A stretch of DNA of 34,495 nt, from contig JADLBV010000053.1 of the NCBI GenBank assembly GCA_020847545.1, positions 1 to 34,495 on the forward strand, in the 5' to 3' direction. Under the pieces are notes generated by a model. The model saw only the letters and a list, made by a program, of their open reading frames with translations. It did no database searches and was not told where the DNA came from. Origin of the DNA: Phycisphaerales bacterium (GTDB lineage Bacteria > Planctomycetota > Phycisphaerae > Tepidisphaerales > Tepidisphaeraceae). The number at the start of each line of letters is the position of its first letter. Position 1 is the stretch's first letter. Positions 3,301-19,237 of this stretch are shown here, piece by piece. The translations under genes were made by a program, and so were the position numbers.

Positions 3301-4141
3301 TAAAACCCGCCTCGAAGGAGGGGTTCACGATGAGGTTGGCGCTGGCGCCATAGTCAGGCAGGCGAAGCCGATCGATGCTCCAGAAGTCGATGCCGTTGGG
3401 GGACAGATTCGCAGCTCCGCGCGGGCCGGTCTCCTTGGAGCGAAGGTCCATCAGGAGGCTCAGCACGTTCTTATTGTCGGCGCGGAACGTGATTCGGCTG
3501 CCGTTGATGGTGATCTCCGCGCAGGAGATGGGCTGGATCGAGAAGGACCGGTCGGCATTGTCCGGGAAGAAACTCAGCGTCGCGCCATTGAGATCCTCGT
3601 TGCTGAAAGTGACTGCGGACTTTGCGTCGAAGTTGATGGTCTTGTCCCCCTTGACGTACCGACCTGTCAGCTTCAGGTAAGGGGGCAGGTCGATCACGGC
3701 ATAGCGGTTGGTCTGTACCGCCGGATTATTCAGCGCGCAGATGGCCTCGATCTTCACAAGGCCATCCTCGCGCAGGCTCAGGTCCAGCGAGTAATTCCCA
3801 AGTATGACGTTGCTGGCCGTGGAATCACGCGCCTCCGCGGTATAGGTTGAATGATTTCCAGTGGTCGTGGTCTTCGGGTTCAGGAAGAAGACAGAGTGCA
3901 GCTCACCCTTGCCGAAATTGAACATTTCGTACATCGAGCCGATCGCGTCGTTGTCGATGCACAGGATCAAGCTGCCGTAATCGGGTTTTTGCCAGATGCT
4001 CTTGGTGCCGCAGGTGATCCGTCCGTTGGGCGTGAACACCGGCATCTCGGCCCCGTCAGCGGCCGTCGCGGCGGATACAGGAGTGCAGATCATTGTGGAA
4101 ATCAACAACACGCACAGCGACAGCAACAATTTCTTGATCAT
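302..4141 (-). CDS. Large secreted multidomain glycoside-hydrolase-like protein with carbohydrate-binding modules
   Basis: A 1279-residue protein. I place the start at the ATG at 4141, where MIKKLLLSLCVLLISTMICT forms a clear signal peptide and AAAGGACC lies about 12 bases upstream; a TTG 33 bases earlier is in frame but less likely. Domains by eye: beta-rich N-terminal region; a CBM4/9-like jelly roll at about 269-427 (NLIVNPSFEAG, HSGSRSLRIK, VDDVQLEKGD); a TIM-barrel-like core at about 555-880; a C-terminal CBM9-like domain at about 1090-1279. In the core, WFTGESNPG (Glu about 677) and LYINEGGNY (Glu about 788) sit where clan GH-A enzymes carry acid/base and nucleophile glutamates. The overall fold suggests a retaining GH-A enzyme near GH39 or GH5, but I cannot assign a family. 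It would act outside the cytoplasm on a polysaccharide. It lies between a PEP-CTERM gene and a DapA-type aldolase gene on the same strand. Confidence 0.85.
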   Translation of the reverse strand: MIKKLLLSLCVLLISTMICTPVSAATAADGAEMPVFTPNGRITCGTKSIWQKPDYGSLILCIDNDAIGSMYEMFNFGKGELHSVFFLNPKTTTTGNHSTYTAEARDSTASNVILGNYSLDLSLREDGLVKIEAICALNNPAVQTNRYAVIDLPPYLKLTGRYVKGDKTINFDAKSAVTFSNEDLNGATLSFFPDNADRSFSIQPISCAEITINGSRITFRADNKNVLSLLMDLRSKETGPRGAANLSPNGIDFWSIDRLRLPDYGASANLIVNPSFEAGFRYWGFPIYVGSAIPLKYRDLFELDDTVAHSGSRSLRIKTIPLRAPSSLGPFAIPFIPGEKYTYSFYAKGSSDKGQVLHVWGRGMVSQLFPENVLTFEVGREWKRYSIPFVAKERFSSIFIDAKSTDGTEDGHVWVDDVQLEKGDMTDFKAPPVSAELVSAARGNFLEFGQKPDFKLNIHSSAPNATGNVSITVEDYFFNTIFEKTYPFKTDARNNGTVALDDLSALVLNKKLRGVPVVAAVFNIDGVERPYKDFFRFSVMNFLENKQKNKNMFNLTYVYSHQAGGPHYERSLARERAIGFGSICYDFIAFANDLDYNLDRERVELAERYGFDFMGRPVLKLHDGVDGEISEQNGKVVMQGIKNLINPTDAELAKFEEICALKAKNRPWNKIWWFTGESNPGAMPLESHHDAFAKFLLATCRGIKRGNPNAKVLIEGGPWTIDPQYGAKWVERYIQDTRRIDPTVKFDGAAAHHYRNFPENPDLDSDIAAFLAMLDRNGCKDWPLYINEGGNYVPFNIPQEGISPYIMHSGNSWYIGPLSYDYGRAERITAAFSARNWLIGLKYASRVACMQDFDTPNRTVDYDFTSRPYEKIPNTLGRILGNASFYKDVRFAPDARCYIFIDDNTKAPVAALWGYKEGVDRWKEEAPLYAFDFGRQDLKFVNLMENEVTFPKDAAGRTMIPASPFPIFIEGAPGTEKQLLDAIAHAAASNNSVSTVDISAYPDADGKATIVFANKVSNEFTGDAKIVLNQAESHLSLQLKPLERMEKRIPLPAGLHGKLLPFNADISLDGGISMHISNPYMLLKNNGHPKLTVDSTLAAWREIPAVSLDGGLSLRFALSGTNVMVAIETKDHNNADGKPFAGTGLYCDPFGALDQWTAPKLVNQDVAAFEFIKTDKGIEAMCHNVQGTQGGSGNKYLVAGQVQKHIAVKVSADAKGQMMIFSIPQEVLAPLILKPGSRFGINLVFPTSSSHTVSLAPVSEFKNAAKPGDIHFVTVIVSN

Positions 4142-4297
4142 TATCAATGAGGTCCTTTTAACCTGACAACGCAATCTTGCCAGTTACATGGGCTTGTCGG
4201 CGGCCTGGGGCTGCTTCACTGGGTCCATCGGTCGGGTGGAATATTGCGGCCCGCGAACACTACGTTTGCAAAGGCGTGAAAACGCACGGAGGAGGGA

Positions 4298-4338
4298 GTT
4301 GCGCGGATCGGAGAATGACATCATTCGATCCGCGCAAC
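4298..4338. other. Strong intergenic hairpin between the PEP-CTERM gene and the large glycosidase gene
   Basis: GTTGCGCGGATCG (4298-4310) is the exact reverse complement of CGATCCGCGCAAC (4326-4338). The inner bases GAATGA and TCATTC can pair as well, so nearly the whole element folds. It begins 32 bp past the stop of the PEP-CTERM gene and lies about 157 bp before the next start on that strand. Neither side ends in a U-run, so it is not a canonical intrinsic terminator. It may mark an mRNA 3' end or limit read-through between a highly expressed structural gene and the enzyme behind it (inference). Confidence 0.6.
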
Positions 4339-4369
4339 ATTCCCGCCCTCGTGCGCAATATGCAGGCAG

Positions 4370-5065
4370 TTAAATCGAGGATCGACGGCGACGCAGCGTC
4401 AGCAGGCCGCCCACCAGCAGCAGACCCATTGAAGCCGGTTCGGGAACCGCCGATGAGACGACGACGTTATCGACCCAGTAATAGTTGCTGTCACTATTCC
4501 CAATGCTTCGGGTGCGGACCTGAACGTAATATCCGTTGACCGAAACATTGGCGGGGGAGCTGACGCCCTGGGCCATCGCGATGAGCGTCGGTGCAACACT
4601 GTACGATGGTCCTGACTGGGTGCCCGCGGTGAGTGAGGCGGTGGCCAGAACCACCGAACTGCCCGTACCATCCGCGTTCTGTGTCGCCACCACATCCACA
4701 TACACGTTGCTTCCACCATCGGGACCAGTGGCATCCTTAACAGATTCAGCGTCGGCGTTGACGGTGAAAACATCGCCCGTCGACACCGTCACGCCGGTGT
4801 TGTTGTACGCCTCTGTGGTCCAGTAGATCATCGGGGTTGCGGTTACGTTGAACGGGTTCGATACGGTGGTCTGGTTGCTGGTCCAATTCAGCGGGTTTTG
4901 GGCGGCACCCGCGCCCCAACCACCGTTGGTGATCGGGTTGCTATTCTGATCCAGCTCAAAGTCACCATTGAGGGTGTTGGCATCGACAATGACCGCGGCG
5001 GGGGCCAGCGAAGCGCCAAGCAACACCATCCCAAACGTGGCGAAAACCATTTTCGCTTTCGACAT
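4370..5065 (-). CDS. PEP-CTERM sorting domain-containing secreted protein
   Basis: A 231-residue protein. The start is the ATG at 5065, preceded by CTGGAGGATTGTC, a good ribosome binding site; the frame is open further upstream but shows no signal there. MSKAKMVFATFGMVLLGASL is a signal peptide cut near APAAV. The middle is Thr/Ser/Asn/Val-rich and resembles a beta-sandwich starting NGDFELDQN, as in carbohydrate-binding modules. The C-terminus holds VPEPASMGLLLVGGLLTL followed by RRRRSSI, the PEP-CTERM tripartite signal read by an exosortase. No exosortase gene is in the window. The protein is probably exported and anchored or released at the cell envelope. It follows the prepilin-like gene by 77 bp on the same strand. 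Its ligand is unknown. Confidence 0.9.
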   Translation of the reverse strand: MSKAKMVFATFGMVLLGASLAPAAVIVDANTLNGDFELDQNSNPITNGGWGAGAAQNPLNWTSNQTTVSNPFNVTATPMIYWTTEAYNNTGVTVSTGDVFTVNADAESVKDATGPDGGSNVYVDVVATQNADGTGSSVVLATASLTAGTQSGPSYSVAPTLIAMAQGVSSPANVSVNGYYVQVRTRSIGNSDSNYYWVDNVVVSSAVPEPASMGLLLVGGLLTLRRRRSSI

Positions 5066-5142
5066 GACAATCCTCCAGAGAAAGTAGTTGAAGTTGGGAA
5101 ATACAACGCTGCATTTCACATCTTCAGGTTCTGTTTGTTTCT

Positions 5143-6018
5143 TTATTCGCGATCCCAATAACTGTTGGGCATCGAATAGTCCGTCAAGGCGCCCTGGCTA
5201 TAAAGACTCGCGGGATCGTCCCTGACCGGCGATGCTTGATTGCTCGCATGCCCATCCGCCCATAGGACATTGCACGAGGCGCTCAGATGTCGGGGCGCCA
5301 GTTGTCCCACATAAGCGACCGCATTCGCATATGGATGGATGTAAAACTGCCCGTTCTTATAGACCGGATCATACGCGTCAGCGGCGACAATCGTCTCCGC
5401 GGGTTTGCGCAGATCCGTCACCTTTGCGACATCAAACGGCCAACCCGGCTGCTTATAGTCATATGTCAGGCCGACCGACATGCCGTACGAGATATATCCG
5501 CGGGTGCGCACATATTCATCCCAACCCACACCCGCGGCCGGCGGGTCCAGCGCGAACGGAATATGTGGGTCTGATGGGCAGTTAAAGACCTGGTAGGTCT
5601 GGACATAACTGTGCGTATTTCCCGGCCATGCGCCTTGGTTGTCCACCAGGTAGTGATACCAGGCGCCCATGACCAGGGGCAACAGGTACGGCATGTACTG
5701 ACCCTTGTTGTCGTTCGTGTACATCGACAAGCCCAGGCCGATCTGCCGAAGGTTGCTCATGCAGGCCACGCTCTGCGAAGCCTGCCTGGCCCGTTGAAGG
5801 CTTGGGAGCAGAATGGAAATAAGAAGCGCTATGATGCCGATAACCACAAGCAGCTCAACCAGAGTAAAAGCGGCAAGATTGTTCTTTTTCTGATTGAGAG
5901 AAACTCGGGGAGGGTTCATCGGAATGTGCGTGGATGCCTGATCATTTTCAGGATCAAAAATAGGGGTGAGGTGATCCAATCCCTTTGATCCAAAACAAGG
6001 CCTTGATTGCAAGATCAT
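5143..6018 (-). CDS. Prepilin-type N-terminal cleavage/methylation domain protein (DUF1559-like, planctomycete type II pseudopilin)
   Basis: A 291-residue protein. I chose the ATG at 6018 because GAGGAG sits 6 bases upstream; a later in-frame ATG at 5919 has no such site. The type IV prepilin motif is [11 protein letters not shown] at about residues 49-59, with the conserved Glu at position +5 of the mature form. A single hydrophobic helix follows, then [25 protein letters not shown], the usual helix continuation in planctomycete pseudopilins. The leader is unusually long, about 50 residues. Near the C-terminus, [15 protein letters not shown] resembles the H-X9-DG domain, with ten residues here between His and Asp. 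It is probably a minor pseudopilin of a secretion or uptake machine. Such genes often stand next to secreted carbohydrate-active proteins in this phylum. It is first in the minus-strand group that continues to the aldolase at the left edge. Confidence 0.9.
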
Positions 6019-6083
6019 GACAGCTCCTCTTTGCAGGATGCGTCTGCGATCAATGGATCGCGCGAACCAATGAAGCGATGTAC

Positions 6084-6111
6084 ACCTTACCCGAAAATCC
6101 GCGAAAGTCAA
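6084..6111 (-). promoter_or_regulatory. Candidate sigma-70-type promoter for the prepilin gene
   Basis: On the minus strand TTGACT (6111-6106) is followed after 16 bases by TAAGGT (6089-6084). The -35 box matches five of six consensus bases; the -10 box is weak (three of six). Transcription would start near 6077 and give a leader of about 60 bases ending in the GAGGAG ribosome binding site. Confidence 0.35.
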
Positions 6112-6363
6112 GTACTGGCGCGCGCAAGAACAGTTTATTTTGATTCTTCCGCCTCCGCAATTCCCTTCCTGTGTCGTTTCTCCGCCTCGTCGATTTGCGG
6201 AGAACTCCCATAAATATTTATCTTGTAAGGCATTATGATTTATTCGGCCGGATTTTTTTGCTCCCATGGATGGACTTGTTCCATGCGGGAAAGTGTACCT
6301 CGATGAATGTGCCGACAAGTCATTATATGCTTGTTCTGGCGCAAGCAAGTAATATTCAATCCT

Positions 6364-6392
6364 TTGACAATCAGTGGAAATTGACGTAAGTT
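6364..6392 (+). promoter_or_regulatory. Candidate promoter for the first rhamnosidase gene
   Basis: A perfect TTGACA -35 box (6364-6369) is followed after 17 bases by TAAGTT (6387-6392). Transcription would start near 6399, leaving a leader of about 90 bases that contains the inverted repeat at 6417-6430. Confidence 0.4.
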
Positions 6393-6416
6393 CTTATTGA
6401 GTTGCATGAGTGGATC

Positions 6417-6430
6417 GCTTCGCTTGAAGC
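6417..6430. promoter_or_regulatory. Small inverted repeat downstream of the rhamnosidase promoter, possible operator
   Basis: GCTTC (6417-6421) and GAAGC (6426-6430) are separated by four bases. The element would lie about 20 bases inside the transcript of the rhamnosidase gene, where a LacI-type repressor encoded by the next gene could block transcription. The arms are only 5 bp, so chance is possible. Confidence 0.25.
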
Positions 6431-6491
6431 TGGACGTCGATTCCACCTTGCATTCCCGACCATTTGACGCATTCTCCTGCCGAGTACGCTG

Positions 6492-8892: not shown

Positions 8893-9984
8893 ATGTCTAT
8901 CCTAATGAAGTACCCGCGATCCGAGATTGTTCAAGCTGGAACCATGCGACAGGAAAAGGTGACATCCATGCACGCGGTCGCAAAGCTCGCCGGGCTTTCG
9001 CGCACCACGGTATCGGATGTGGTCAACAACCGCTGGCGGGAAAAGGGGATCACCCGCCATACCTACGACCGCGTTCAGAAACTGATTGCGAAATACAACT
9101 ACCGACCCAACATGCTGGCGCGGAGCCTGGCGGCTGGTAAAACTTACACCATCGGCGTGCAGTTGCCATCGTCGATGTATGAGCACTGGAACGCCGTCCA
9201 TAAAAATCTCGACGCGGCTTTTCGCCGGCATGGATATCACCTGGCCCTGGCCAGCGCCAGTTGGTTCCACGATGCAGAAGAAGATGAGATTCGCCGGTTG
9301 TGCGACCGTCAGGTTGATGGGCTGATTCTCAGTCCGCAGAACGGCATGAGACTCCATTCGCTGTTCAAATGGATTCAGCAGCGGGGAATTCCGTTCGTCT
9401 TCATCGGCAGCGTCTCCCTGCCGCACTACTTTGCGGTCGTCGACGACAATAGCTCCAACGCTCGATTGGCGGTGGAACACTTGATTCGACTGGGGCATGA
9501 ACGGATCGCCTATCTGCACAGCACATCGCGCACGCTGGGCGAGCGCGAACGGCGGCGCGGTTATCTTCAAACCCTGCGGGACCACGGCCTGAGGGTTCAC
9601 AGGGAATATCTTGGCTGGGGGTACCATGATTTTGATCAGTCGCGCCAGGCCATGCTGCGGATGCTCGACCTTTCCGAGCCTCCGACCGCGATCTATTGCG
9701 GGGCGGACACCATGGCGTTGGGCGTCATTGACGCCATCCTCGCCAGGGGGATGCGCGTGCCCGATGACGTCGCGGTTGTCGGTCAGGCCGACGACATCGC
9801 GTTTATTTCGCAGTACCGCGTGCCGCTGACCACGATCCGCCAACCACGTCAGCAACTCGCGGAAAACGCCGTGCGGATGCTCCTCGACCTGATCGAAGGA
9901 CGCACGCCGGCCCAGTCCCTCATCCGCCTGCCCGGAGAACTGATCATCCGTGATTCATGCGGCGGGCTGAAACAGGCGCGGTAA
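8893..9984 (+). CDS. LacI family transcriptional regulator
   Basis: Up to 363 residues. The N-terminal helix-turn-helix is HAVAKLAGLSRTTVSDVVNN (about 27-46 from the first ATG), followed by the hinge YRPNMLARSLAAGKTYTIGV and a periplasmic-binding-protein-like sensor domain (FVFIGSV; VDDNSSNARLAVEHLIRLGH; AIYCGADTMALGVIDAILARG; TTIRQPRQQLAENAVRML). Normal LacI proteins begin only a few residues before the helix-turn-helix, so the ATG at 8944 (MRQEKVTSMHAV) is as likely a start as the one at 8893. None of the starts has a strong ribosome binding site. The gene follows the rhamnosidase gene by 7 bp and is probably cotranscribed with it as a local repressor or activator. It converges on the AraC-type gene, with 45 bp between their stops. 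Confidence 0.93.
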   Translation: MSILMKYPRSEIVQAGTMRQEKVTSMHAVAKLAGLSRTTVSDVVNNRWREKGITRHTYDRVQKLIAKYNYRPNMLARSLAAGKTYTIGVQLPSSMYEHWNAVHKNLDAAFRRHGYHLALASASWFHDAEEDEIRRLCDRQVDGLILSPQNGMRLHSLFKWIQQRGIPFVFIGSVSLPHYFAVVDDNSSNARLAVEHLIRLGHERIAYLHSTSRTLGERERRRGYLQTLRDHGLRVHREYLGWGYHDFDQSRQAMLRMLDLSEPPTAIYCGADTMALGVIDAILARGMRVPDDVAVVGQADDIAFISQYRVPLTTIRQPRQQLAENAVRMLLDLIEGRTPAQSLIRLPGELIIRDSCGGLKQAR

Positions 9985-10029: not shown

Positions 10030-10893
10030 TTAATGTCCACGCTGCCGATAATGCGCGGGTGGCTCACCGATGATCCGCGCAAAAGCGCGTGTGAAATGGT
10101 AGCGATTCTTAAATCCTGCCTGCGCCGACACTTGCTTTAAGCTGTCATCACCGAATGCGAGACGTTCGGCCGCGTAGGTTATACGGCGCTCGAGTGCATA
10201 CCGAGCCGGCGTTTGTCCAACATGTTTGCGAAACAGCCGGATAAAATGGTCCTCGCTCATGCCGCAGAGGTCGGCCAACTCGGTGTTGAGCGCGGGCTTC
10301 GCGAAATTATCATCGATTCGACGCAGCGCGGGGAGGACCGGAGTCAGGTCCGTCAGTTGACGGCGCAGCAGGCGCACATCAAACGCGCCACCTTTCGGCT
10401 GCTCCTCCTCCAGAATCTGAAAAAGTCTCGCAACCGAAAGATCGACCAGTGACTTGGCGGCGAAGGCCGTGACGATGTCATCGCTCCGGCCTGCATTGAG
10501 CAGACCCCGCACATGCCGGACATGCCTTCGGGTCAATGGATCATCCGACAGCGACACGGGGCGGTCAAACCATTGCCGCACCAATGGACCGGTCAGCCCG
10601 ACGATGTCGAAATGAAAACACAGGTGATGAACTTCCCGTTCATTGCGACTGTCATACTTCACCCACGCGGGGATCACAAACGCATGATGTGGCGGTATCG
10701 GATACTCAATGCCCGCCGACCAGACCACGGCACCGGGGCCCGCGTTGACATACAGCCGCCAATAACTGCCGCGCACATTATTGTAAATCCATGAATGTGG
10801 CGGCAACAGGACTGAGCCCATCGAAAGCAGACGCACATGGATTCGGTCATGGACGGTGATCGGGCTGGCGTGTGATCCGGGTGAAGGAGACAT
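10030..10893 (-). CDS. AraC/XylS family transcriptional regulator
   Basis: A 287-residue protein. The N-terminal region (about 15-165) looks like the cupin-type sugar-sensing domain of AraC proteins. The C-terminal domain (about 190-285) has both helix-turn-helix motifs: LNTELADLCGMSEDHFIRLF with KHVGQTPARYALERRI, then SLKQVSAQAGFKNRYHFTRA with FARIIGEPPAHYRQR. The gene is divergent from the nine-gene plus-strand operon, with 227 bp between the starts. Two 8-bp direct repeats 21 bp apart in that gap fit an AraC-type binding site, so it probably controls the operon. An imperfect palindrome ATATC-N7-GATAT (10892-10908) overlaps its start codon and could serve autoregulation. No clear ribosome binding site precedes the ATG at 10893. 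Confidence 0.93.
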   Translation of the reverse strand: MSPSPGSHASPITVHDRIHVRLLSMGSVLLPPHSWIYNNVRGSYWRLYVNAGPGAVVWSAGIEYPIPPHHAFVIPAWVKYDSRNEREVHHLCFHFDIVGLTGPLVRQWFDRPVSLSDDPLTRRHVRHVRGLLNAGRSDDIVTAFAAKSLVDLSVARLFQILEEEQPKGGAFDVRLLRRQLTDLTPVLPALRRIDDNFAKPALNTELADLCGMSEDHFIRLFRKHVGQTPARYALERRITYAAERLAFGDDSLKQVSAQAGFKNRYHFTRAFARIIGEPPAHYRQRGH

Positions 10894-10990
10894 ATCGGGA
10901 TCAGATATTATTAGGATAAAGCATTCTAACCGCGTGACAGCCGTTGTCCAGAGGTCTAATGGTGTGAAATGCCGTGTTTGGCCATCGACG

Positions 10991-11019
10991 TATGACGGAA
11001 ATCGATATCACTATGACGG
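10991..11019. promoter_or_regulatory. Direct-repeat AraC-type binding site candidate
   Basis: TATGACGG occurs at 10991-10998 and again at 11012-11019, in the same orientation and 21 bp start to start, which is two helical turns. AraC-family dimers classically bind direct-repeat half-sites with this spacing. The site lies in the gap between the divergent AraC-type gene and the operon starting at 11121, about 100 bp upstream of that start, a usual position for an activator. Confidence 0.5.
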
Positions 11020-11046
11020 TGGTCGGCATGGAACCGCCACCATGCG

Positions 11047-11061
11047 GTTGTATGTTACAAC
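11047..11061. promoter_or_regulatory. Perfect inverted repeat upstream of the nine-gene operon
   Basis: GTTGTA (11047-11052) and TACAAC (11056-11061) flank three bases. It lies 60 bp before the first gene of the operon and 28 bp after the direct repeats. It could be a second operator, for example for a LacI-type protein, or a leader-RNA hairpin. No matching copy was found elsewhere in the window. Confidence 0.35.
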
Positions 11062-11120: not shown

Positions 11121-12401
11121 ATGTTGCCCATCAGATTGCTCGAGCGTGCCAGAGAGATTGAAGATTGGGTCGAGGATCGATTCATCGACTCCAACGGCAT
11201 CTTCTATACCTACCTTGATACAAAGACGGGTGGTCCGTTGACGGATGCATCCTTCGCCGTCGGCCAGACGCCGATGCATCTGCCCGGCACCGAGGATTAC
11301 ACGCCGGCCGAATGGCACAATTACGAAAACTGCGGCATGACGACGGCCGCCTATACGCAGGCGCTGCTTTACCGCCACGCGGTGGAACGGGATTCGACCG
11401 CGTTGAAGAGGGCCCGCCGTTGCTTTGAGGCGATGAAGTACAATTACGAGTTGGGCAAACAACTCGAGGAGGGTTTTCTACCGAAGCTGTATGGCAATCG
11501 ATTCTCCGAACAAACGAGCACCGACCAGGTGCTGTATGTGATGCTGGCCCTCGATCATTTTCACAAGTTCGCCACCGAGAATGAGAAGCGTGAAATCGAT
11601 CGAATGATCGTGAATCTGATCGGATTCTGGGTGAAACGGGGGTATCGGTACAAGTATTTCTGGCACCAGGACATGCTCTGGCCGTTGGGGCGGTTCCCGA
11701 GTCTGTTGCTCATGGGTTGCAAGCATGGTGGGGATGCGATTTTCAAGACCGAGTATGACCGATTGCTCGCGATGGGGGTCAATGAAGGACCGATCGAACT
11801 TCGGTTGGAGCCGAAGCTCGCCGGCGACTATACGCCAAGCCCGTATGAGCTAAAGCACCAGGCGTGGCTCATTGGCGAGTTGGAAGGCTCGGTCTCCATG
11901 GACATGATGGAGCTTGATTACCTGCTTCGCAATGATCCGCACAATCGCTGGGCGCCGAACTGGAAGGCGTCGATGAAGAAGGTGTGGGATGAGGGCAAAC
12001 TGGCCTTGGCGCCCGATGGGACGATGTATGTGCATGTGTTGGTGGACATGAAAACGCACAAGCCGCGCCGGCCGGAGCCGGAGTTTTTCAGAAAATCTGA
12101 AGGGCCTCAGGATTGGATCGGTTTTTGTTATGCTTCCGGCGGCCGATCCGCCGACAGCACCTTTCACGCCCGCTCGGCCGTTCAGGCGGAGAAGCATCTG
12201 CATGATCCCCAGATGCGTGACGCCGCCCGGCACATCATCCAATCGATCGACCGAAAGGGACTGCGTTCGTATTACGACCCCGAACGATACCCTCCGGAAT
12301 TGAAGCATCGCACGGAGTTGTATTCCGGCGATGCCACGGCCAACTGGCTGTGGGCTTACTGGCAAGGCCGCCATGACGGCGTGTTTGGCGAAGATGAGTA
12401 G
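11121..12401 (+). CDS. Predicted alpha/alpha-barrel protein of unknown function, possible glycosidase or lyase
   Basis: A 426-residue protein with no signal peptide. The helical repeats and aromatic-rich motifs (YENCGMTTAAYTQALLYRHAVE; STDQVLYVMLALDHFHKF; RYKYFWHQDMLWPLGRFPS; TELYSGDATANWLWAYWQGR) suggest an (alpha/alpha)n toroid as in unsaturated glucuronyl hydrolases, epimerases or polysaccharide lyases. I do not recognise the family and no catalytic pair can be assigned with confidence; Asp, Glu and His residues in the PGTEDYTP and WHNYENCG region are candidates. It is first in the operon under the presumed AraC site and is followed after 25 bp by the MDR dehydrogenase gene. The ATG at 11121 lacks a strong ribosome binding site. 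Its place at the head of a catabolic operon suggests a role on the primary oligosaccharide. Confidence 0.7.
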   Translation: MLPIRLLERAREIEDWVEDRFIDSNGIFYTYLDTKTGGPLTDASFAVGQTPMHLPGTEDYTPAEWHNYENCGMTTAAYTQALLYRHAVERDSTALKRARRCFEAMKYNYELGKQLEEGFLPKLYGNRFSEQTSTDQVLYVMLALDHFHKFATENEKREIDRMIVNLIGFWVKRGYRYKYFWHQDMLWPLGRFPSLLLMGCKHGGDAIFKTEYDRLLAMGVNEGPIELRLEPKLAGDYTPSPYELKHQAWLIGELEGSVSMDMMELDYLLRNDPHNRWAPNWKASMKKVWDEGKLALAPDGTMYVHVLVDMKTHKPRRPEPEFFRKSEGPQDWIGFCYASGGRSADSTFHARSAVQAEKHLHDPQMRDAARHIIQSIDRKGLRSYYDPERYPPELKHRTELYSGDATANWLWAYWQGRHDGVFGEDE

Positions 12402-12426
12402 TGGGATTGCTCTTTTCGGAGATATT

Positions 12427-13509
12427 ATGAAAACCCAGGCCATTGTTTTTGATTCCCCGTCCCAGGTGAGTGTTCATCAGATTGAACTGCCTCCCATCAC
12501 CGAAAACGAGGTATTGGTTCAGACCCATTTCTCAACTGTCAGTCCCGGCACCGAGCTGCGTACGCTCGCCGGCAAGGAGCCATCCGCCGACCCGTTTCCG
12601 CTGGTCCCCGGCTATTCGACCGTCGGCGAAGTGGTGGACGTCGGCGCGAAGGTAAAGGGTTTGAAGATCGGCACCATGGCCTATGTGCGCGGATGCCGGT
12701 CGTTGAAACCGGGTCTCGGTTGTTCATGGGGTGGTCACGCGGGCCACCTGATCGCGCCGCAACAGGAAGTGTTTGTCCTGCCCGACAAGGCTGATCCGAA
12801 AAAGGGGACGCTCACCGCGCTGCTGGCGACGGCGCTGCACGGAACCGACCTGACCCATGCGCGTATTCGTGAGCAGGTGGCCGTGGTCGGGCTGGGGTTG
12901 GTGGGGCAGCTATGTTCCAGACTCCTACGGCTTGCCGGCGCCAATGTTGTCGCAACCGATTTGGTTCCCCTCCGTCGGCAGATCGCACAACAGGCCGGCG
13001 TCACGGTCGTCCATGACGAAAAGAATCTGCGAAAGGCATTTGATGCGCATTTCCCATATGGCGCTGAAGCGGTTGTTGACGCCGCCGGATCATCAAAGGC
13101 GCTCAAGGCCTCATTGAGCCTGCTCCGCCAGCGACCCCGGGAGGATCCGTGCGGCTCGCACGACTCCGCGGCGGACGGCGCGGAGATCGGCATTTTGTCG
13201 CGGCTGCGGAAGGAATCGCATCTGCACAACGGATGGAGTGGCCCTCGGCTTGTCGCGCAAGGCAGTTATGGCGATCCAATCCAGATTGATTACCACGACC
13301 TGTTCGACAGTGAAGTGAAGTTCATTGTTCCGCGCGTGCATGAGTTGAAGGATATTTTCCGCGCGCTGGAGTTGCTGGTCGAGCCATCGCTGAGCCTTGA
13401 TGGACTGATTTCCGAGACCCATCCCATTGCGGATGCGCCCCGTTGCTATCAGAAATTGAAGGAACATCCCGGTGAACTGATCACACTCTGCTTCGACTGG
13501 GGACGATGA
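12427..13509 (+). CDS. MDR-family (zinc-type alcohol dehydrogenase-like) oxidoreductase
   Basis: A 360-residue protein starting at the ATG at 12427, with GGAG eight bases upstream; earlier in-frame starts would overlap the previous gene. The GroES-like N-terminal domain includes FSTVSPGTELRTLAGK (about 36-50) and VPGYSTVGEVVDVG (about 60-73). The Rossmann fold shows VAVVGLGLVGQL (about 151-162). The catalytic zinc Cys usual at about position 38 is Ser in VSPGTE, and the four-Cys structural zinc loop is absent. This is typical of the 'SPGTE' subgroup seen in sugar and bacteriochlorophyll pathways. It probably oxidises a sugar or polyol using NAD(P). Residues 236-242 (RPREDPC) are odd: neighbouring-frame sequence reads like the expected GRI turn, so two compensating small indels are possible. 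It overlaps the next gene by 4 bp (ATGA). Confidence 0.88.
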   Translation: MKTQAIVFDSPSQVSVHQIELPPITENEVLVQTHFSTVSPGTELRTLAGKEPSADPFPLVPGYSTVGEVVDVGAKVKGLKIGTMAYVRGCRSLKPGLGCSWGGHAGHLIAPQQEVFVLPDKADPKKGTLTALLATALHGTDLTHARIREQVAVVGLGLVGQLCSRLLRLAGANVVATDLVPLRRQIAQQAGVTVVHDEKNLRKAFDAHFPYGAEAVVDAAGSSKALKASLSLLRQRPREDPCGSHDSAADGAEIGILSRLRKESHLHNGWSGPRLVAQGSYGDPIQIDYHDLFDSEVKFIVPRVHELKDIFRALELLVEPSLSLDGLISETHPIADAPRCYQKLKEHPGELITLCFDWGR

Positions 13510-14372
13510 TCAATGGACACCCAACCATGAATGATGTTGCGACAAATCCGCCGATGCCCGCATTCCAAGCTTTTGCGCCATTGGTTGCGCGCGGACTGGT
13601 GCTGCGGGAATTTCAGGCGACTTTGGGTGATCGAACTATTCCGGCGATCATTGCCTTGCCGCCCCAGGAGCGGCTTCATGCGAACCCGGTGCTCCTGCTG
13701 ACAATCGGCGGCGCCTTGACCCATTTCGTGCCGCCAAATCAGCAACCGGCCGAATACTTCTGGGCACAGGGTCATCCCGTCGTCAGTTTCAATACGCAAA
13801 CGATGCCCGGTGATTTGTCGGAGTTATGCCAAAACATCCTGAAAGCCGCCGATCCATTTGAAATCTTCATTCAGGAAGCCCGCGCGGTGCTCGACCACTG
13901 CATCGCGGAGGGGTGGACCAAGCCCGACCGCATCGTGGTTTCGGGGATATCCCGCTATGGCTATCTGGCGTTTCGCCTGATGGCCGCGGATCAGCGGCTC
14001 AAAATCGGCGCGGGCTTCTCTCTCGTCACGGATTGGCGGGATTTAAGTGAGTTTGCCAACCATCGTGACATGAAGCGGATCGCCGATCTGCGGCTTTCAC
14101 TCTTCGCCAATCAGTTGGTCGGCAAGCATATATATATGGCCATCGGCAGCCACGATGAGCGCGTCAGCACGTTGAGCGCCTGCCGGTTTTTCCTGGACCT
14201 GAACGAGGCCAATCAAAAACGCGGCTTGGGTCCGGAACTGATCGATTTTCATGTCACCCCCGACATCGGACACACCTGCGGCAATGAATGGTATCAACGC
14301 GGCATGGAGATTCTCCTGGACCGCGCCTTGCACGGGACAAATAACCAACCCTCCATCGGAACAACCTTATGA
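13506..14372 (+). CDS. Alpha/beta hydrolase fold protein
   Basis: A 288-residue protein, no signal peptide. The nucleophile elbow is GISRYG (Ser about 149), with a probable acid in GSHDERV (Asp about 217) and base in IGHTCGNEW (His about 256), in the right order for a Ser-Asp-His triad. An upstream strand-turn LLLTIGGALTHF could form the oxyanion hole. The ATG overlaps the stop of the dehydrogenase gene (ATGA) with GGGGACG just upstream, so translation is probably coupled. The gene overlaps the following sialidase-fold gene in the same way. In this operon it may remove acyl groups from sugars or open a lactone made by the dehydrogenase (inference). The family includes esterases, peptidases and lactonases, so the substrate is uncertain. 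Confidence 0.82.
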   Translation: MINGHPTMNDVATNPPMPAFQAFAPLVARGLVLREFQATLGDRTIPAIIALPPQERLHANPVLLLTIGGALTHFVPPNQQPAEYFWAQGHPVVSFNTQTMPGDLSELCQNILKAADPFEIFIQEARAVLDHCIAEGWTKPDRIVVSGISRYGYLAFRLMAADQRLKIGAGFSLVTDWRDLSEFANHRDMKRIADLRLSLFANQLVGKHIYMAIGSHDERVSTLSACRFFLDLNEANQKRGLGPELIDFHVTPDIGHTCGNEWYQRGMEILLDRALHGTNNQPSIGTTL

Positions 14373-15472
14373 GCTATAAGATCATCAAAGAAGGATTCAT
14401 CCATCAATGCCCGCCGGAGAATGCGGAGGAAATCGCCATCACCGGACGCTGCGCGGTCACGCAAGGTGGGCAGGTTCTTTGCAGCTACATGACGGAGTCG
14501 GGATTGAGCCGCAATGATTTTGTCCCCAATCTGGCCATCTCCTCCGATGCCGGCGAAAGCTGGCAGCTACGCGGTCAGATCTGGCCGCATTTGCGCGAAC
14601 GCTACTCCATCAACGTCTCCATCAGCCGATCGGCCGATGGCACCCTGTTCCTGTTCGGCTCGCGCACGCCGCGAAACAAGCCCGGTGAATCCTTCTGGTC
14701 CCAGGAAACATTGGGCATCCTGCAAAATGAACTGGTCTGGTCGCGTTCGGAGGATGATGGGCAAACCTGGAGCGACCCCCGGCCGATATCCATCCCTCTG
14801 CCCGGAGCGGCCGAAAGTCCGGCCCCATTGTGTCCCACCCTCACCGGCCGATGGGTCGCTCCATACTCGCCGCACAACACCTTCGACCCGAACCTGAAGG
14901 TCGATCTTCGACATGTCGTCCTGATGATCAGCGACGATCAGGGGAAAACATGGCGGCATACCTCCATGATTCGTGTGAAGGAGGAAGATGCTTACGTTGC
15001 TGAATCCTGGGTGACCCAGCTCTCCACCGGCGTGCTGCTGGGGACCACCTGGCATCTTCGGCGCGGCAAGGGGGATGATTTTCCCAACGCCTACGCCCTG
15101 TCCACCGACAACGGCCAAAGTTGGGGACCCACTCGGGCCACGCCGATCCTCGGCCAATCCGCCGCCCTGGCCCCCCTGGATGATGGCAAGGTGCTGTTCG
15201 TCTACAACCAGCGCCGTCACGGCACACCCGGTGTCTGGCTGGCCCTGGCCAAGCCGACCGATCGGGACTTTGGCGTCCAAGTCAATGAAGTCGTCTGGCG
15301 CGCCGCCGTCGCCACTCAGAATGCCTCATCAGGAAAGAGTACGAACTGGACCGATTTTGCTTTTGGCGAGCCGTCGGTCACCGTTCTGCCGGATCATACG
15401 GCGTTGGTTGCCTTTTGGTGCATCCAACCTGATGGCGCCGGCATTCGATATGTCAAACTACGGCTCTCTTGA
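14369..15472 (+). CDS. Sialidase-fold (BNR/Asp-box) protein, probably cytoplasmic
   Basis: A 367-residue six-bladed beta-propeller candidate without a signal peptide. Four Asp-boxes are plain: SSDAGESW (58-65), SEDDGQTW (127-134), SDDQGKTW (188-195) and STDNGQSW (245-252). The arginine triad, Asp and Tyr/Glu of true sialidases (GH33) cannot be placed with certainty; Arg27 in TGRCAV and Arg in YNQRRHG are candidates. Planctomycetes have many such proteins annotated as exo-alpha-sialidase without proof. It starts by a 4-bp ATGA overlap with the alpha/beta hydrolase gene, so the two are translationally coupled. A second, distinct member lies at 23269-24426. It may be a glycosidase or lyase for acidic or deoxy sugars; sialic acid use is not otherwise indicated here. 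Confidence 0.85.
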   Translation: MSYKIIKEGFIHQCPPENAEEIAITGRCAVTQGGQVLCSYMTESGLSRNDFVPNLAISSDAGESWQLRGQIWPHLRERYSINVSISRSADGTLFLFGSRTPRNKPGESFWSQETLGILQNELVWSRSEDDGQTWSDPRPISIPLPGAAESPAPLCPTLTGRWVAPYSPHNTFDPNLKVDLRHVVLMISDDQGKTWRHTSMIRVKEEDAYVAESWVTQLSTGVLLGTTWHLRRGKGDDFPNAYALSTDNGQSWGPTRATPILGQSAALAPLDDGKVLFVYNQRRHGTPGVWLALAKPTDRDFGVQVNEVVWRAAVATQNASSGKSTNWTDFAFGEPSVTVLPDHTALVAFWCIQPDGAGIRYVKLRLS

Positions 15473-15490
15473 TAGCCCCCCTGAAACATC

Positions 15491-16537
15491 ATGAAAATCA
15501 CCGATGTCAAAACCGACCTATTGACCATCCTGATCTCCCTCAAAGCGGAGGAGAAGCACCTTAGTCGGATTCGCCAGGCGTGCCCCAATGCGCGTCTTCG
15601 CACGGCGCCGTGGATCAACCAGGCCGATCAACGGATGGAAGCGGATCTGATGAAAGGGGTCGATGCGCTCTTGTGCGAGCTGCCGCCGGCCAATTTTGAT
15701 GATTTTGACCAGCTCAAGTGGATCCAGCTTTGCTCGGCCGGATACAGTCAGGTATTGAATCTCCCGATCCTCCAGCGTGGCATTCGTGTCACCAACGGGC
15801 TGGGCAACTTCGACGCTCCAATCGCGCAGTGGTGCATCATGATGATGCTCATGTGGCATCGCGAGATGCTTGAACAACTCAAAAACCAGAAGAATCATGT
15901 CTGGAATCCCGATGGAAAATTTCAAGGCGACCTATTCGGCGCCACGGTTGGATTTTGGGGCTACGGCGGAATCGCGCGCGAGACCGCGCGGCTCTGCAAA
16001 TCCCTGCATACGAACGTCTGGACGATGACGCGCGATGGTAAAACCAAGTCCCGCCCCTTGACCTACTGCGTGTCCGGCACCGGAGATCCCAACGGAAATC
16101 TCCCCGATCGCGTCTTCGCCCCCTCGCAGGTTCAGGAGTTTCTCAGCGGCCTGGATTACCTGTTCATCACCATGCCCCAGACGACCGCCACCATCGGCAT
16201 GATCGGCGAACGTGAATTGAAAATGCTCAAGCCATCCGCGGTCATCATCAATCCGGCCCGCGCCCCGATCATTCCGCAAGAGGTGTTTGTCCGGTGTCTG
16301 CGCGAGCGCTGGATTCGCGGGGCGTCGCTGGATGTGCATTACGCCTATCCCCTGCCGCCGGAGCATCCGTTGTGGGGCATGCCGAATTTGATCATGACGC
16401 CGCATATTTCAGGCTCCGCCGAAAGCCCGCGCTTTCTCGACCGGATTTACGACATATTTTCGCAGAATATTGAACGTCTTGTCGCCGCAAAGCCCCTGCT
16501 CAACGAGCTGACAACAGAACAATTACAGGGTCGATAA
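15491..16537 (+). CDS. D-isomer-specific 2-hydroxyacid dehydrogenase family protein with altered active site
   Basis: A 348-residue protein starting 18 bp after the sialidase-fold gene. The NAD-binding domain carries GATVGFWGYGGIARETARLC (about 150-169), a GxGxxG variant. The catalytic Arg is present in INPARAPII (Arg257) and the His in TPHISGS (His305). The catalytic Glu of the family, normally in DVFxxEPLP, is replaced: here DVHYAYPLPPEHPLW, with Tyr286 at that place. The Arg loop also reads RAP rather than RG. It may work on a bulky sugar acid with a different proton relay, or may have another role. An NAD(P)-dependent step on a sugar-derived 2-hydroxy or 2-keto acid fits the operon (inference). 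Confidence 0.88.
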   Translation: MKITDVKTDLLTILISLKAEEKHLSRIRQACPNARLRTAPWINQADQRMEADLMKGVDALLCELPPANFDDFDQLKWIQLCSAGYSQVLNLPILQRGIRVTNGLGNFDAPIAQWCIMMMLMWHREMLEQLKNQKNHVWNPDGKFQGDLFGATVGFWGYGGIARETARLCKSLHTNVWTMTRDGKTKSRPLTYCVSGTGDPNGNLPDRVFAPSQVQEFLSGLDYLFITMPQTTATIGMIGERELKMLKPSAVIINPARAPIIPQEVFVRCLRERWIRGASLDVHYAYPLPPEHPLWGMPNLIMTPHISGSAESPRFLDRIYDIFSQNIERLVAAKPLLNELTTEQLQGR

Positions 16538-16558
16538 ACACTCACGAGGAGAAACGCC

Positions 16559-17527
16559 ATGAGACGATACGCCGCCATTCTCGGGAATCTGGGCAACACC
16601 AAAGACCGCTTTTGTGCTGGGTACAAGGACAACCCCGACACCATGACCATGCTGCGCCAGGCCGCAGGCATCGCCAATGTCACGGGAATTGAATTGGTGG
16701 GGACATGGGACATTCGTCCCGACAATGTGAAGCAGATGGCGCAGGCGCTTGAGGATGTGGGGTTGCAGTGCGTCTCCATCATCCCCGATCTGTTCACGGA
16801 CAAGGTGTACTGGAAGGGGAGCTATTCGGCCCCGGATGTCGCCGTTCGCCGCAAAGCTATCGACTACACACGGGCGATGTGCGATATAGCGCGGGAGTTG
16901 GGGTGTGGGATTATCAACATCTGGCCGGGGCAGGATGGGTATGACTATCTGCTGTGCGCCGACTATGAGTCGGGACGCGGGTGGATGAGCGATGCCGTGG
17001 CGGAGCTGGCCGGGGCGTATCCCGATCTGAAGTTCGCGCTGGAATACAAGCCGATGGAGCCGCGGACGCATTCATACCTGGCTCGGATGGCCGACACGCT
17101 GCTGTTGGCGCTGGAGACGGGATGCGCCAATGTGGGGGTGACCATCGACACCGGGCACGCCTTCGCCGCCGGCGAGACGGTGGGGGAGGCGATCGTGTTG
17201 GCCAAACGGGCGGGAAATCGGCTTTTTCACATGCACTTCAATGACAACCACGGCCGATGGGATGATGACATGATTGTCGGGACGATCCACAGCACCTGCT
17301 ATGTCGAGATGCTGTACTGGCTGGACAGGATTGGATATTCGGGCTGGCTGTCGATGGACCAGTATCCCTATCGCGAAGAGGCGGCCGGCGCGATCGGCGA
17401 ATCGGTGGCCTGGCTCATCCAGTTCGACAAGATCGTCCAAAAACACAGCGGCCAAATCGATCAACTGGTCGCCGCCCAGGATGCCGTCGCCACATCACGG
17501 TTTTTGCGGGGTGTGCTGGCTCAATAG
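16559..17527 (+). CDS. Sugar phosphate isomerase/epimerase family TIM-barrel protein
   Basis: A 322-residue protein with a strong ribosome binding site (GAGGAG about 8 bases before the ATG). The AP-endonuclease-2/xylose-isomerase-like barrel is shown by GIELVGTWD (about 43-51), INIWPGQDGYDY (119-130), LEYKP (Glu162), TIDTGHAFAAGE (Asp197, His200), MHFNDNHGRWDDD (His226 and following acids) and LSMDQYPYREE (Asp267). These give the set of Glu, Asp, His and acidic metal ligands expected for a divalent-metal ketose epimerase or aldose-ketose isomerase. It resembles non-phosphorylated sugar enzymes such as tagatose 3-epimerase or rhamnose isomerase-like proteins. It would interconvert the monosaccharide freed by the operon's glycosidases. 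It lies between the dehydrogenase-like gene (21 bp) and the SGNH hydrolase gene (10 bp). Confidence 0.88.
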   Translation: MRRYAAILGNLGNTKDRFCAGYKDNPDTMTMLRQAAGIANVTGIELVGTWDIRPDNVKQMAQALEDVGLQCVSIIPDLFTDKVYWKGSYSAPDVAVRRKAIDYTRAMCDIARELGCGIINIWPGQDGYDYLLCADYESGRGWMSDAVAELAGAYPDLKFALEYKPMEPRTHSYLARMADTLLLALETGCANVGVTIDTGHAFAAGETVGEAIVLAKRAGNRLFHMHFNDNHGRWDDDMIVGTIHSTCYVEMLYWLDRIGYSGWLSMDQYPYREEAAGAIGESVAWLIQFDKIVQKHSGQIDQLVAAQDAVATSRFLRGVLAQ

Positions 17528-17537
17528 GGCATCTTCC

Positions 17538-18365
17538 ATGCACATGATGACACCCATCGCCGCTTCGACCGGAGGATCGAATTCTCCCCTGTCACGGTTT
17601 CATCGCCGCATTCAGGAAAAGACCGTCGACCGCTCCGTCCGCGCCCCCTTGATCGTGGCATTGGGGGACAGTGTCACCCAGGGTGTGGCGGCGGTCGATC
17701 AGTTCCTTCACGAAGAGGTCTATCACCGTCAATTCGCCCATCTTCTGGAACAGAAGCACCCCACCTGCATCTTCAATACGATCAACGCCGGCGTCGATGG
17801 CCAAACCACCCGTGACGCTCTGGTTCGACTGGATCGCGATGTCCTCCCGCATCGCCCCGATCTGCTGCTGGTGGCGTTCGGCCTAAACGACGCCGTGCAG
17901 GGTGGGCTGGAGAAACTGGACGATTATCAAGCCAACATCGAGGCCATTATTCACCGAACCCGGCGTGAAGCTGAATGTGATATCATTCTGCTGACGCCCA
18001 ACATGATGCTGAGCAGGGACAATGTGATGGTTGCGCCGCAACACCGCCACCTCGTTCATCAATTCCTTGAGATACAAAATGGAGGCGTGTTGGCGGCCTA
18101 TGCCCAGCGCCTGCGTCAAATCGGCCGCGATCAAAACATCCCCATCGCCGATCTCTACACCGCATGGGAAACCCTGGCCCAAAAGGGAACCGACACCACC
18201 GCGATGCTCTCCAACGGCCTGAATCACCCTACGGCCGAAGGTCACCGCATGGCGGCGCAAGTCCTGATGTCCGTGATGGATGAATTTCCATCACCCTGTG
18301 TAGATGTGGTTGGTGGAGCACAAACGCCGCTCTCACTCACTCTCCAAACTCACCAAAACCTATGA
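17538..18365 (+). CDS. SGNH/GDSL-type hydrolase
   Basis: A 275-residue protein. The start is taken as the ATG at 17538, just after the epimerase stop; the frame is open further back inside that gene, but the earlier part reads as a shadow of it. Block I is IVALGDSVTQG with Ser45; block II is NAGVDGQTTRD; block III is AFGLNDAVQGG with its Asn; block V is LSNGLNHPTAEGHRM, where the usual DGxHP is NGLNHP. This variant is frequent in planctomycete and Bacteroidetes members, and the His is kept. No signal peptide, so the substrate is inside the cell, probably acetyl or other acyl esters on sugars. The ribosome binding site is weak (TAGGG), and coupling to the epimerase gene is likely. Confidence 0.88.
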   Translation: MHMMTPIAASTGGSNSPLSRFHRRIQEKTVDRSVRAPLIVALGDSVTQGVAAVDQFLHEEVYHRQFAHLLEQKHPTCIFNTINAGVDGQTTRDALVRLDRDVLPHRPDLLLVAFGLNDAVQGGLEKLDDYQANIEAIIHRTRREAECDIILLTPNMMLSRDNVMVAPQHRHLVHQFLEIQNGGVLAAYAQRLRQIGRDQNIPIADLYTAWETLAQKGTDTTAMLSNGLNHPTAEGHRMAAQVLMSVMDEFPSPCVDVVGGAQTPLSLTLQTHQNL

Positions 18366-18392
18366 CAATAACTCGACAACAACGAGGCACTC

Positions 18393-19193
18393 ATGCAAAT
18401 CAGTGAAATTCAAGCCATTGATATTCACGGCCATTACGGCCGCAACGACCGCCCCGGCCGCCCACTGGCGATCCAATTTCAGTCCGCCGACCCGGCCGAG
18501 GTCGTCCGCCGTGCCCGCCAGTGCAATACCCGCTACACCGTCGTCTCTCCGCTGCTGGGTCTGATGCCGCGCGGCGGATCGGACCCCGTGGCGGGCAATG
18601 ACCAAGCCGCGCGGGTCGTCGCCGAATATGATGATCTGCTTCAATGGGTCATCGTCGATCCACTCCATCCGCGGACTTTTGAGCAGGCCGATGCGATGTT
18701 GAAGTCGCCCAAATGCGTCGGCATCAAGATTCATCCCGAAGAGCATTGTTATCCCATCCGCGAGCATGGCGACAAGCTCTTTGCCTTTTTTGCCCAGCGC
18801 CGCGCGCTGGTTCTCACACACAGTGGCGATCAAAACAGCATGCCCGGGGATTTTGTGCCATTCGCCGATGCCCATCCTGAAATGAAATTGATTCTGGCCC
18901 ATATCGGCAACGGATGGGACCGCGAATTGGGACACCAGGTGCGAGCCGTGGCCGCCTCCCGCCATGGCAATCTCTACGCCGACACCTCCAGCGCCAGCAG
19001 CATCGTGCCAAACCTGATCGAATGGGCGGTTCATGAGATTGGCGCGAATCGGGTGCTCTATGGAACCGACACACCGCTATATAGCGCCTCCATGCAGCGA
19101 ATCCGCATTGATCGCTCTGAACTTGGCGACAATGAAAAATATCAAATATTGCGAGGCAACGCGGCGAAATTGCTCAACTTGCCGGCGGATTAA
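18393..19193 (+). CDS. Amidohydrolase family protein (metal-dependent, amidohydrolase-2 type)
   Basis: A 266-residue TIM-barrel protein. Ligands appear in the standard order: IDIHGHYG (His12, His14), VGIKIHPEEH (Lys112 and His114), LTHSGDQ (His143), LAHIGNGW (His170) and YGTDTPLYS (Asp226). This group includes lactonases such as L-rhamnono- and L-fucono-lactonase, and also decarboxylases, so a sugar-lactone hydrolase role beside the MDR dehydrogenase is attractive but unproven. GAGG seven bases before the ATG supports the start. It is 27 bp after the SGNH hydrolase gene and 44 bp before the second GH78-like gene. Confidence 0.88.
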   Translation: MQISEIQAIDIHGHYGRNDRPGRPLAIQFQSADPAEVVRRARQCNTRYTVVSPLLGLMPRGGSDPVAGNDQAARVVAEYDDLLQWVIVDPLHPRTFEQADAMLKSPKCVGIKIHPEEHCYPIREHGDKLFAFFAQRRALVLTHSGDQNSMPGDFVPFADAHPEMKLILAHIGNGWDRELGHQVRAVAASRHGNLYADTSSASSIVPNLIEWAVHEIGANRVLYGTDTPLYSASMQRIRIDRSELGDNEKYQILRGNAAKLLNLPAD

Positions 19194-19237
19194 TTCGCAT
19201 CCGGTATGAGTCCCGCGCGGTATGTGGAGTGTGATGT

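Follow-up and report, generated by a model that had tools for sequence, protein, structure and literature searches.

A two-unit site shared with two relatives is predicted to let a divergent AraC-type regulator activate a nine-gene operon in a Phycisphaerales bacterium

Positions 10991-11029 of the window (the whole stretch of 34,495 nucleotides that was analyzed) are very probably the dimer site of an AraC-family protein encoded divergently from a nine-gene run, a site from which this protein would activate the run in the style of araI1-I2 of Escherichia coli. In the mechanism that we propose, the AraC protein from 10030-10893 would bind two direct 18-bp half-sites as a dimer, the half-sites lying two helical turns apart on one face of the DNA. 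Each half-site would present an A-box, TATGaCGG with the core CGG, and about one turn away a B-box, RRYAT; together, the two boxes are the expected targets of the two helix-turn-helix (HTH) motifs of one monomer. With the proximal half-site ending at the place of a -35 element, 21 bp before the TATGTT at 11051, bound AraC would touch RNA polymerase and turn the nine-gene operon on, as E. coli AraC does at araI1-I2. Through a further half-site over the araC start codon, AraC would limit its own synthesis. The features concerned are as follows.

8893-9984, plus strand: LacI-type regulator, named as a second regulator in the sequence-only reading, a link that found no support.
10030-10893, minus strand: AraC-family regulator of 287 amino acids with a C-terminal double HTH (PF12833, E = 2.5e-21).
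10891-10908, plus strand: single half-site CATATCGGGATCAGATAT over the araC start codon (10893), the fifth-ranked half-site of the window and not part of the training set.
10923-10950, minus strand: candidate araC promoter TGGACA-N16-TAGAAT, from a consensus scan (1 found versus 0.4 expected).
10991-11008, plus strand: distal putative AraC half-site (unit 1), TATGACGGAAATCGATAT, first-ranked half-site of the window under a matrix that includes it.
11012-11029, plus strand: proximal putative AraC half-site (unit 2), TATGACGGTGGTCGGCAT, second-ranked under a matrix that includes it.
11047-11061, no strand: 6-3-6 inverted repeat GTTGTA-TGT-TACAAC, probably incidental, covering the -10-like hexamer.
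11051-11056, plus strand: -10-like hexamer TATGTT of the candidate operon promoter, 21 bp after unit 2 and matching TATAAT at 4 of 6 positions.
11121-21676, plus strand: nine-gene run, a probable operon, with gaps of -4 to +44 bp.

The sequence-only reading had described perfect 8-bp direct repeats 21 bp apart between the AraC gene and the operon. They are present where it placed them: two copies of TATGACGG at 10991-10998 and 11012-11019, 21 bp from start to start with 13 bp between, in the 227-bp gap that separates araC from the first operon start at 11121 and that also holds the inverted repeat. The coordinates thus stand, but the extent does not. An alignment of four sites revealed TATGACGG to be the visible core of a longer bipartite unit. 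In full, the site has the 18-bp unit TATGaCGG-N5-RRYAT twice, with the starts 21 bp apart (10991-11008 and 11012-11029), followed by the -10-like hexamer at 11051-11056. Sites of the AraC/XylS family are asymmetric, either direct repeats or single, with units of 17-18 bp, and the architecture of two 18-bp direct units fits that form. The first six sites, which served as the training set before a seventh was added from G001 by a matrix scan, comprise 12 half-sites; C6, G7, A17, and T18 were present in all 12 and G8 in 10 of them. When the matrix was built from the five other sites only, 10991-11029 scored 35.7 bits and ranked first of 68,914 positions, the next scoring 13.5. Treated in the same way, each of the other five sites ranked first or second within its own locus; the two that came second were G018 site b, below G018 site a, and G001 site a, below the seventh site, so that both were outranked by members of the site set.

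Close orthologues of this AraC protein were found in only two of 61 genomes, G018 (78% identity) and G001 (56%), with the next match at 33%; apart from these two, the best AraC match across 397 genomes of the class had 40% identity. The site therefore rests on six training examples and one further G001 site. A BLAST search with 92 bp of the region in the window's genome (G000), G001, and G018 returned, besides the region itself, weak matches only (E of 0.4 or more), and a degenerate pattern was thus required. The bipartite site occurs three times in the G018 cluster (upstream of a unit with S9, xylose-isomerase-like, and GDSL genes, upstream of a DUF1559 unit, and upstream of a second rhamnosidase gene) and three times in the G001 cluster (upstream of a DUF1559 unit, upstream of a second rhamnosidase gene, and across the araC start). 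Five of these six relatives' sites face cluster genes other than araC, with a -10-like hexamer 21 to 22 bp downstream; the one across the G001 araC start codon is the seventh site, obtained from a matrix scan of 113 loci plus the window. In the same G001 locus (L049), a gene that by appearance encodes an acyltransferase-like protein (15195-15899) lies between araC and the DUF1559 target, the two sites there being 817 bp apart.

The window site most resembles G018 site a: the two units agree at 15 and 14 of their 18 positions, the spacer after them at 15 of 21, and the -10-like hexamer at 5 of 6, whereas the flanks agree at 20 of 60 positions upstream and at 12 of 30 downstream. Compared with the remaining four sites, the units kept 10 to 14 of 18 positions and the spacer 5 to 9 of 21. 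In the alignment of the regions upstream of araC, read on the minus strand, the window's CCGTCATA-N13-CCGTCATA pairs with CCGCTCTA-N13-CCGCTATA of G018 across a similar spacer. The literal 8-mer fared otherwise. The cluster loci fetched from G018 and G001 contain no TATGACGG pair, and their one single copy (L104, position 10055) falls within a reading frame at the far end; TATGACGG was found in 13 of 121 loci, and 21-bp pairs only in those containing the window site. We accordingly rejected the literal pair as the conserved unit. The check put forward with the sequence-only reading, a search for TATGACGG pairs beside orthologues of this AraC protein, hence gave a divided answer, with the literal pair missing from G018 and G001 but the bipartite two-unit site kept in both, and on this genome comparison the reading of the region as an AraC operator is well supported.

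Genome-wide pattern searches were less discriminating. The first degenerate pair pattern was written from the window site and one (the second) G018 site, so the zero-mismatch matches of these two are there by construction. At up to 3 mismatches it found three copies in G018, all within the cluster, and none elsewhere in the G018 genome or in G001. Across 150 relatives, matches at 3 mismatches appeared in 83, compared with about 35 for the backward control (counted from the table); among the matches listed there, only G000 and G018, the genomes from which the pattern was derived, had one with fewer than 2 mismatches. Such loose matches are weak proof and were set aside as evidence for the site, and the weight was placed instead on the leave-one-out ranks, the place of the sites within the cluster, and the spacing to the -10-like hexamer. 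With the bipartite pattern at up to one mismatch, we counted 12 matches in G000 (control, 2), 12 in G001 (control, 5), 5 in G018 (control, 2), and 6 in G031 (control, 1). One of these lay inside the cluster in G000, two in G001 (both with one mismatch), and three in G018. Zero-mismatch matches outside the cluster numbered one each in G000 (contig C103), G001 (C23), and G031 (C334); those in G001 and G000 are unaccounted for by this AraC regulator, and such matches slightly reduce our confidence in the main reading. The loci concerned (L080 and L077; C103, 14631-14664 in G000, and C23, 20323-20356 in G001) are nearly identical between the two genomes and possibly lie within a conserved gene.

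The regulator itself belongs to the AraC/XylS family by its DNA-binding part. PF12833 covers residues 206-285 at 76.2 bits (cut-off, 33.6), and the HTH stretches SEDHFIRLFRKHVG and KNRYHFTR are identical between the window and G018 proteins. At E values of 0.001 or below, Pfam recognized HTH families only, with no AraC-type ligand-binding domain and no match in the N-terminal half. The protein differs from AraC itself in that only the HTH part is shared: it scored 34.3 bits against the curated AraC equivalog NF007860, below the cut-off of 208.

Missing from the earlier inventory of AraC sites was the half-site at 10891-10908, which is among the best-conserved parts of the three-way alignment of the window, G018, and G001. 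Near-identical words overlap the start in L106 and L107, two loci of one genus with AraC homologues at 35-36% identity, and looser half-site words occur at varied distances from the estimated start in other distant homologues. A best half-site score of at least 7, a cut-off chosen after the scores were seen, lay within -80 to +40 of the start in 9 of 13 distant homologues versus 0 of 24 other AraC loci. The scores of the two groups differed (Mann-Whitney P = 0.0003, or 0.002 with one locus per genome), where the 24 control loci mostly aligned over the HTH only, had rough start estimates, and were unmatched to the homologues in base composition. This comparison left out L027 (cut by a contig end), L034 to L041 (weak, mostly HTH-only matches), and AraC matches without a locus. 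Strict overlap of the half-site with an ATG was seen in 4 of 16 loci versus 0 of 24; this count skips the codon that opens a match, where the start lies in L001 and L003. Full two-unit sites at distant araC starts are only suggestive. In a narrow interval at the nearest start codon, P was below 0.05 in 3 of 13 distant homologues versus 0 of 24 controls; a wider interval, set afterwards, gave 7 of 13 versus 4 of 24, and a third gave 5 of 13 versus 2 of 24, with the starts of the two groups set by different rules.

These data suggest that AraC probably limits its own synthesis through the half-site at 10891-10908. One could instead suppose that 10891-10908 is only the core promoter of an araC transcript that is leaderless or has a short leader, its likeness to an AraC site being fortuitous. 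We regard this as rather unlikely; in its favor, a G018 promoter, TTGACA-N17-TATATC, read by eye, overlaps the half-site. The window's candidate promoter TGGACA-N16-TAGAAT also ends 30 bp upstream of the araC start codon, and the per-locus chance values of the half-site, at or below 0.05 in 8 of 16 loci, were just 0.047 for the window and 0.063 for G018. Against a mere core promoter, conservation extends to a CCG on the araC strand that forms the core of the A-box and belongs to no promoter element; G001 has a complete two-unit site at this place; and the scores near the start separate distant homologues from controls, albeit at the cut-off set afterwards.

The layout of the putative operon promoter is what points to activation. 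TATAAT-like hexamers (4 or 5 of 6 matches) follow unit 2 at 21 bp in five of the six sites (TATGTT, TATGCT, TATAGT, TACAAT, and TACAAA) and at 22 bp in one (TATGTT, G018 site c); a 4-of-6 match is reached by 2.2% of window positions. A consensus scan recognized no -35 element for the operon promoter. Since unit 2 ends at the -35 place, 21 bp before the -10-like hexamer, we propose a contact between AraC and polymerase, and the direct units together with the promoter layout would speak for activation by such contact and not for repression. The inducer is perhaps a product of a rhamnose-containing glycan.

For comparison, we used the E. coli araI1-I2 stretch with unit borders of 17 bp; of 5,426 E. 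coli genomes, 5,345 contain this stretch at 90-100% identity. Like araBAD, the window promoter has two direct half-sites in a 21-bp register, with the proximal half-site next to or over the -35 position and a divergent neighbor as regulator. The proximal unit begins 39 bp before the -10 in the window and 37 bp before it in the E. coli stretch, and the window thus shows an araBAD-like class II layout. The box sequences, TATGaCGG and RRYAT, are unlike those of the E. coli AraC sites. With RhaS and other AraC/XylS-family activators of sugar operons, the window regulator shares the C-terminal double HTH and catabolic targets of a sugar type, although only its HTH resembles RhaS (32.9 bits versus a cut-off of 288). 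RhaS sites consist of inverted 17-bp half-sites, whereas those of the window are direct. In PMC7408454, araI1 and araI2 are given as direct-repeat half-sites of 8 bp each, centered at -52.5 and partly over the -35 element, and araO2 as 211 bp away; the extra half-site of the window, over the araC start, is at 100 bp.

The same E. coli system furnishes another reading, in which the AraC-bound site is mainly a repressor site, or a looping partner of the start-codon half-site, and the operon is turned on by release. The off state of araBAD is described in PMC6018408 as looping between araI1 and araO2. In the window, the conserved single half-site at 10891-10908 stands at a distance of 100 bp from unit 1, and in G018 this distance is 103 bp. 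A loop of 100 bp is short, however, and the G001 site at the araC start lies 817 bp from the DUF1559 site. Moreover, the distance from unit 2 to the -10-like hexamer matches the geometry of activation in 6 of 6 sites. We therefore consider repression or looping as the main role unlikely and retain activation by the bound dimer.

The sequence-only reading had also assigned the perfect 6+6 inverted repeat at 11047-11061 to a second regulator, perhaps the LacI-type protein. The repeat exists, but the assignment found no support. The -10-like hexamer falls within the repeat, and the G018 promoter most similar to this one, site a, does not preserve the right arm. Nor does the repeat exceed chance: among 20,000 Markov sequences that matched the araC-operon gap in composition, 6% contained a 6-3-6 repeat and 42% a 6+6 repeat with any gap of 0 to 10, frequencies that leave the repeat without interest. 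That the LacI-type protein (8893-9984) binds 11047-11061 and represses by covering the -10 element is thus very improbable, even though a perfect repeat does lie over the hexamer and, of the three genomes compared, only the window's own has the repeat and the LacI gene. LacI-family operators are even-length palindromes with a central CG, whereas this repeat is of odd length with the center TGT and no central CG. Two divergent promoter regions were checked, and this is the only perfect 6-3-6 repeat in either; none occurs ahead of the rhamnosidase-lacI unit (5920-6480), where a self-regulating LacI protein would be expected to bind. Even-length near-palindromes were found in 5920-6480 and not in the araC-operon gap; one of them, GGATCGCGCGAACC at 6055-6068, has a central CG and by appearance is a possible LacI-type operator. 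As the closest matches to the LacI protein reach 33% identity in G018 and 30% in G001, neither being an orthologue, conservation neither confirms nor rules out a LacI role specific to the window's genome.

Other candidate elements were tried as well. Both the 6-3-6 repeat, at chance level, and the AACCGC/GCGGTT pair (11032-11049) were rejected as operator or hairpin, their arms not being kept in G018 site a. The pattern TTGTA-N3-TACAA at up to 2 mismatches had 7 matches in the window versus 4.1 expected. An AraR-type GntR operator was set aside because the spacing differs; the GntR/LacI-type chimera at 28799-29950 joins a GntR HTH to a LacI-type sensor domain and is divergent from a cluster with aldolase and ROK genes.

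The direct repeat was gauged against the same simulated gaps. An exact 8-mer repeat with a start spacing of 21 occurred in 0.3% of them, one with a spacing of 20 to 22 in 1.1%, and one with any spacing from 9 to 120 in 25%, so that by itself the repeat is notable only for its AraC-type 21-bp spacing. Over the whole window, TATGACGG was observed 4 times versus 0.92 expected, a count reached by 3 of 100 shuffles. That the repeat is a mere chance match is nonetheless scarcely credible: the frequency of repeats at spacings of 9 to 120 favors it, but the leave-one-out ranking of the window site, the confinement of conservation to the two units, and the fixed distance from site to -10-like hexamer all go against it.

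As to the genes served, the sequence-only reading had spoken of a nine-gene operon. There are indeed nine genes on one strand, encoding in order a 426-amino-acid protein, a zinc dehydrogenase, an S9-type hydrolase, a BNR protein, a 2-hydroxyacid dehydrogenase, a xylose-isomerase-like protein, a GDSL esterase, an amidohydrolase, and a rhamnosidase-like protein. Terminator and promoter scans over the run gave chance-level counts only, and the single transcript is thus inferred from strand and gaps. The first gene (11121-12401) is about 80% identical in both relatives and has no Pfam or NCBIfam match. The rhamnosidase-like, GDSL esterase, xylose-isomerase-like, dehydrogenase, and amidohydrolase genes together suggest the use of a rhamnose-bearing glycan.

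The regulon is arranged differently in the relatives. Within the fetched stretches, orthologues of the operon genes are present in the araC cluster for 8 of 9 genes in G018 and 4 of 9 in G001, in a different order. In G018 the genes stand in several units, the BNR and amidohydrolase genes in one on the opposite strand for which no AraC site was found. The site nearest to araC on its upstream side faces a DUF1559 unit in both relatives, and not the 426-amino-acid gene; in G018, the gene facing araC is the DUF1559 gene itself. AraC sites serve three units in G018 and two in G001, besides the one at araC, whereas the window has one before nine genes. The window's own unit of DUF1559, PEP-CTERM-like, and 1290-amino-acid genes (302-5919, minus strand) has no AraC site, the best score in 5920-6491 being 0.8; its orthologues have one in both relatives. 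The 1290-amino-acid protein lacks a Pfam match and is 53% identical to its orthologues, compared with 64-90% for the operon genes that have an orthologue. The likeness of the window promoter to G018 site a, which stands before the S9-hydrolase unit, extends through the spacer and the -10, and together with the siteless DUF1559 unit it suggests that genes may have been gathered behind one promoter.

A limited literature search found no description of an AraC regulon, of this site, or of this regulator for this bacterial group. In kind, the promoter layout is already known and the switch that we predict is of an ordinary type. What is concrete is the predicted binding code: TATGaCGG-N5-RRYAT, twice, in a 21-bp register, and 21 bp further on a -10-like hexamer. 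This code suggests that promoters laid out like araBAD reach into these bacteria with other box sequences. A predicted regulon spread over several promoters in one relative here corresponds to a single gene run in another. More tentatively, and short of calling it probable, we envisage an AraC subfamily, in Phycisphaerae with distant members in other phyla, that uses for autoregulation a long-conserved half-site over or next to the start codon of its own gene. In the window's lineage, on this view, genes that are distributed in G018 over separate units, three of which have an AraC-controlled promoter to themselves, stand behind one promoter, most like that of the G018 S9-hydrolase unit, the DUF1559/1290-amino-acid unit having left the regulon.
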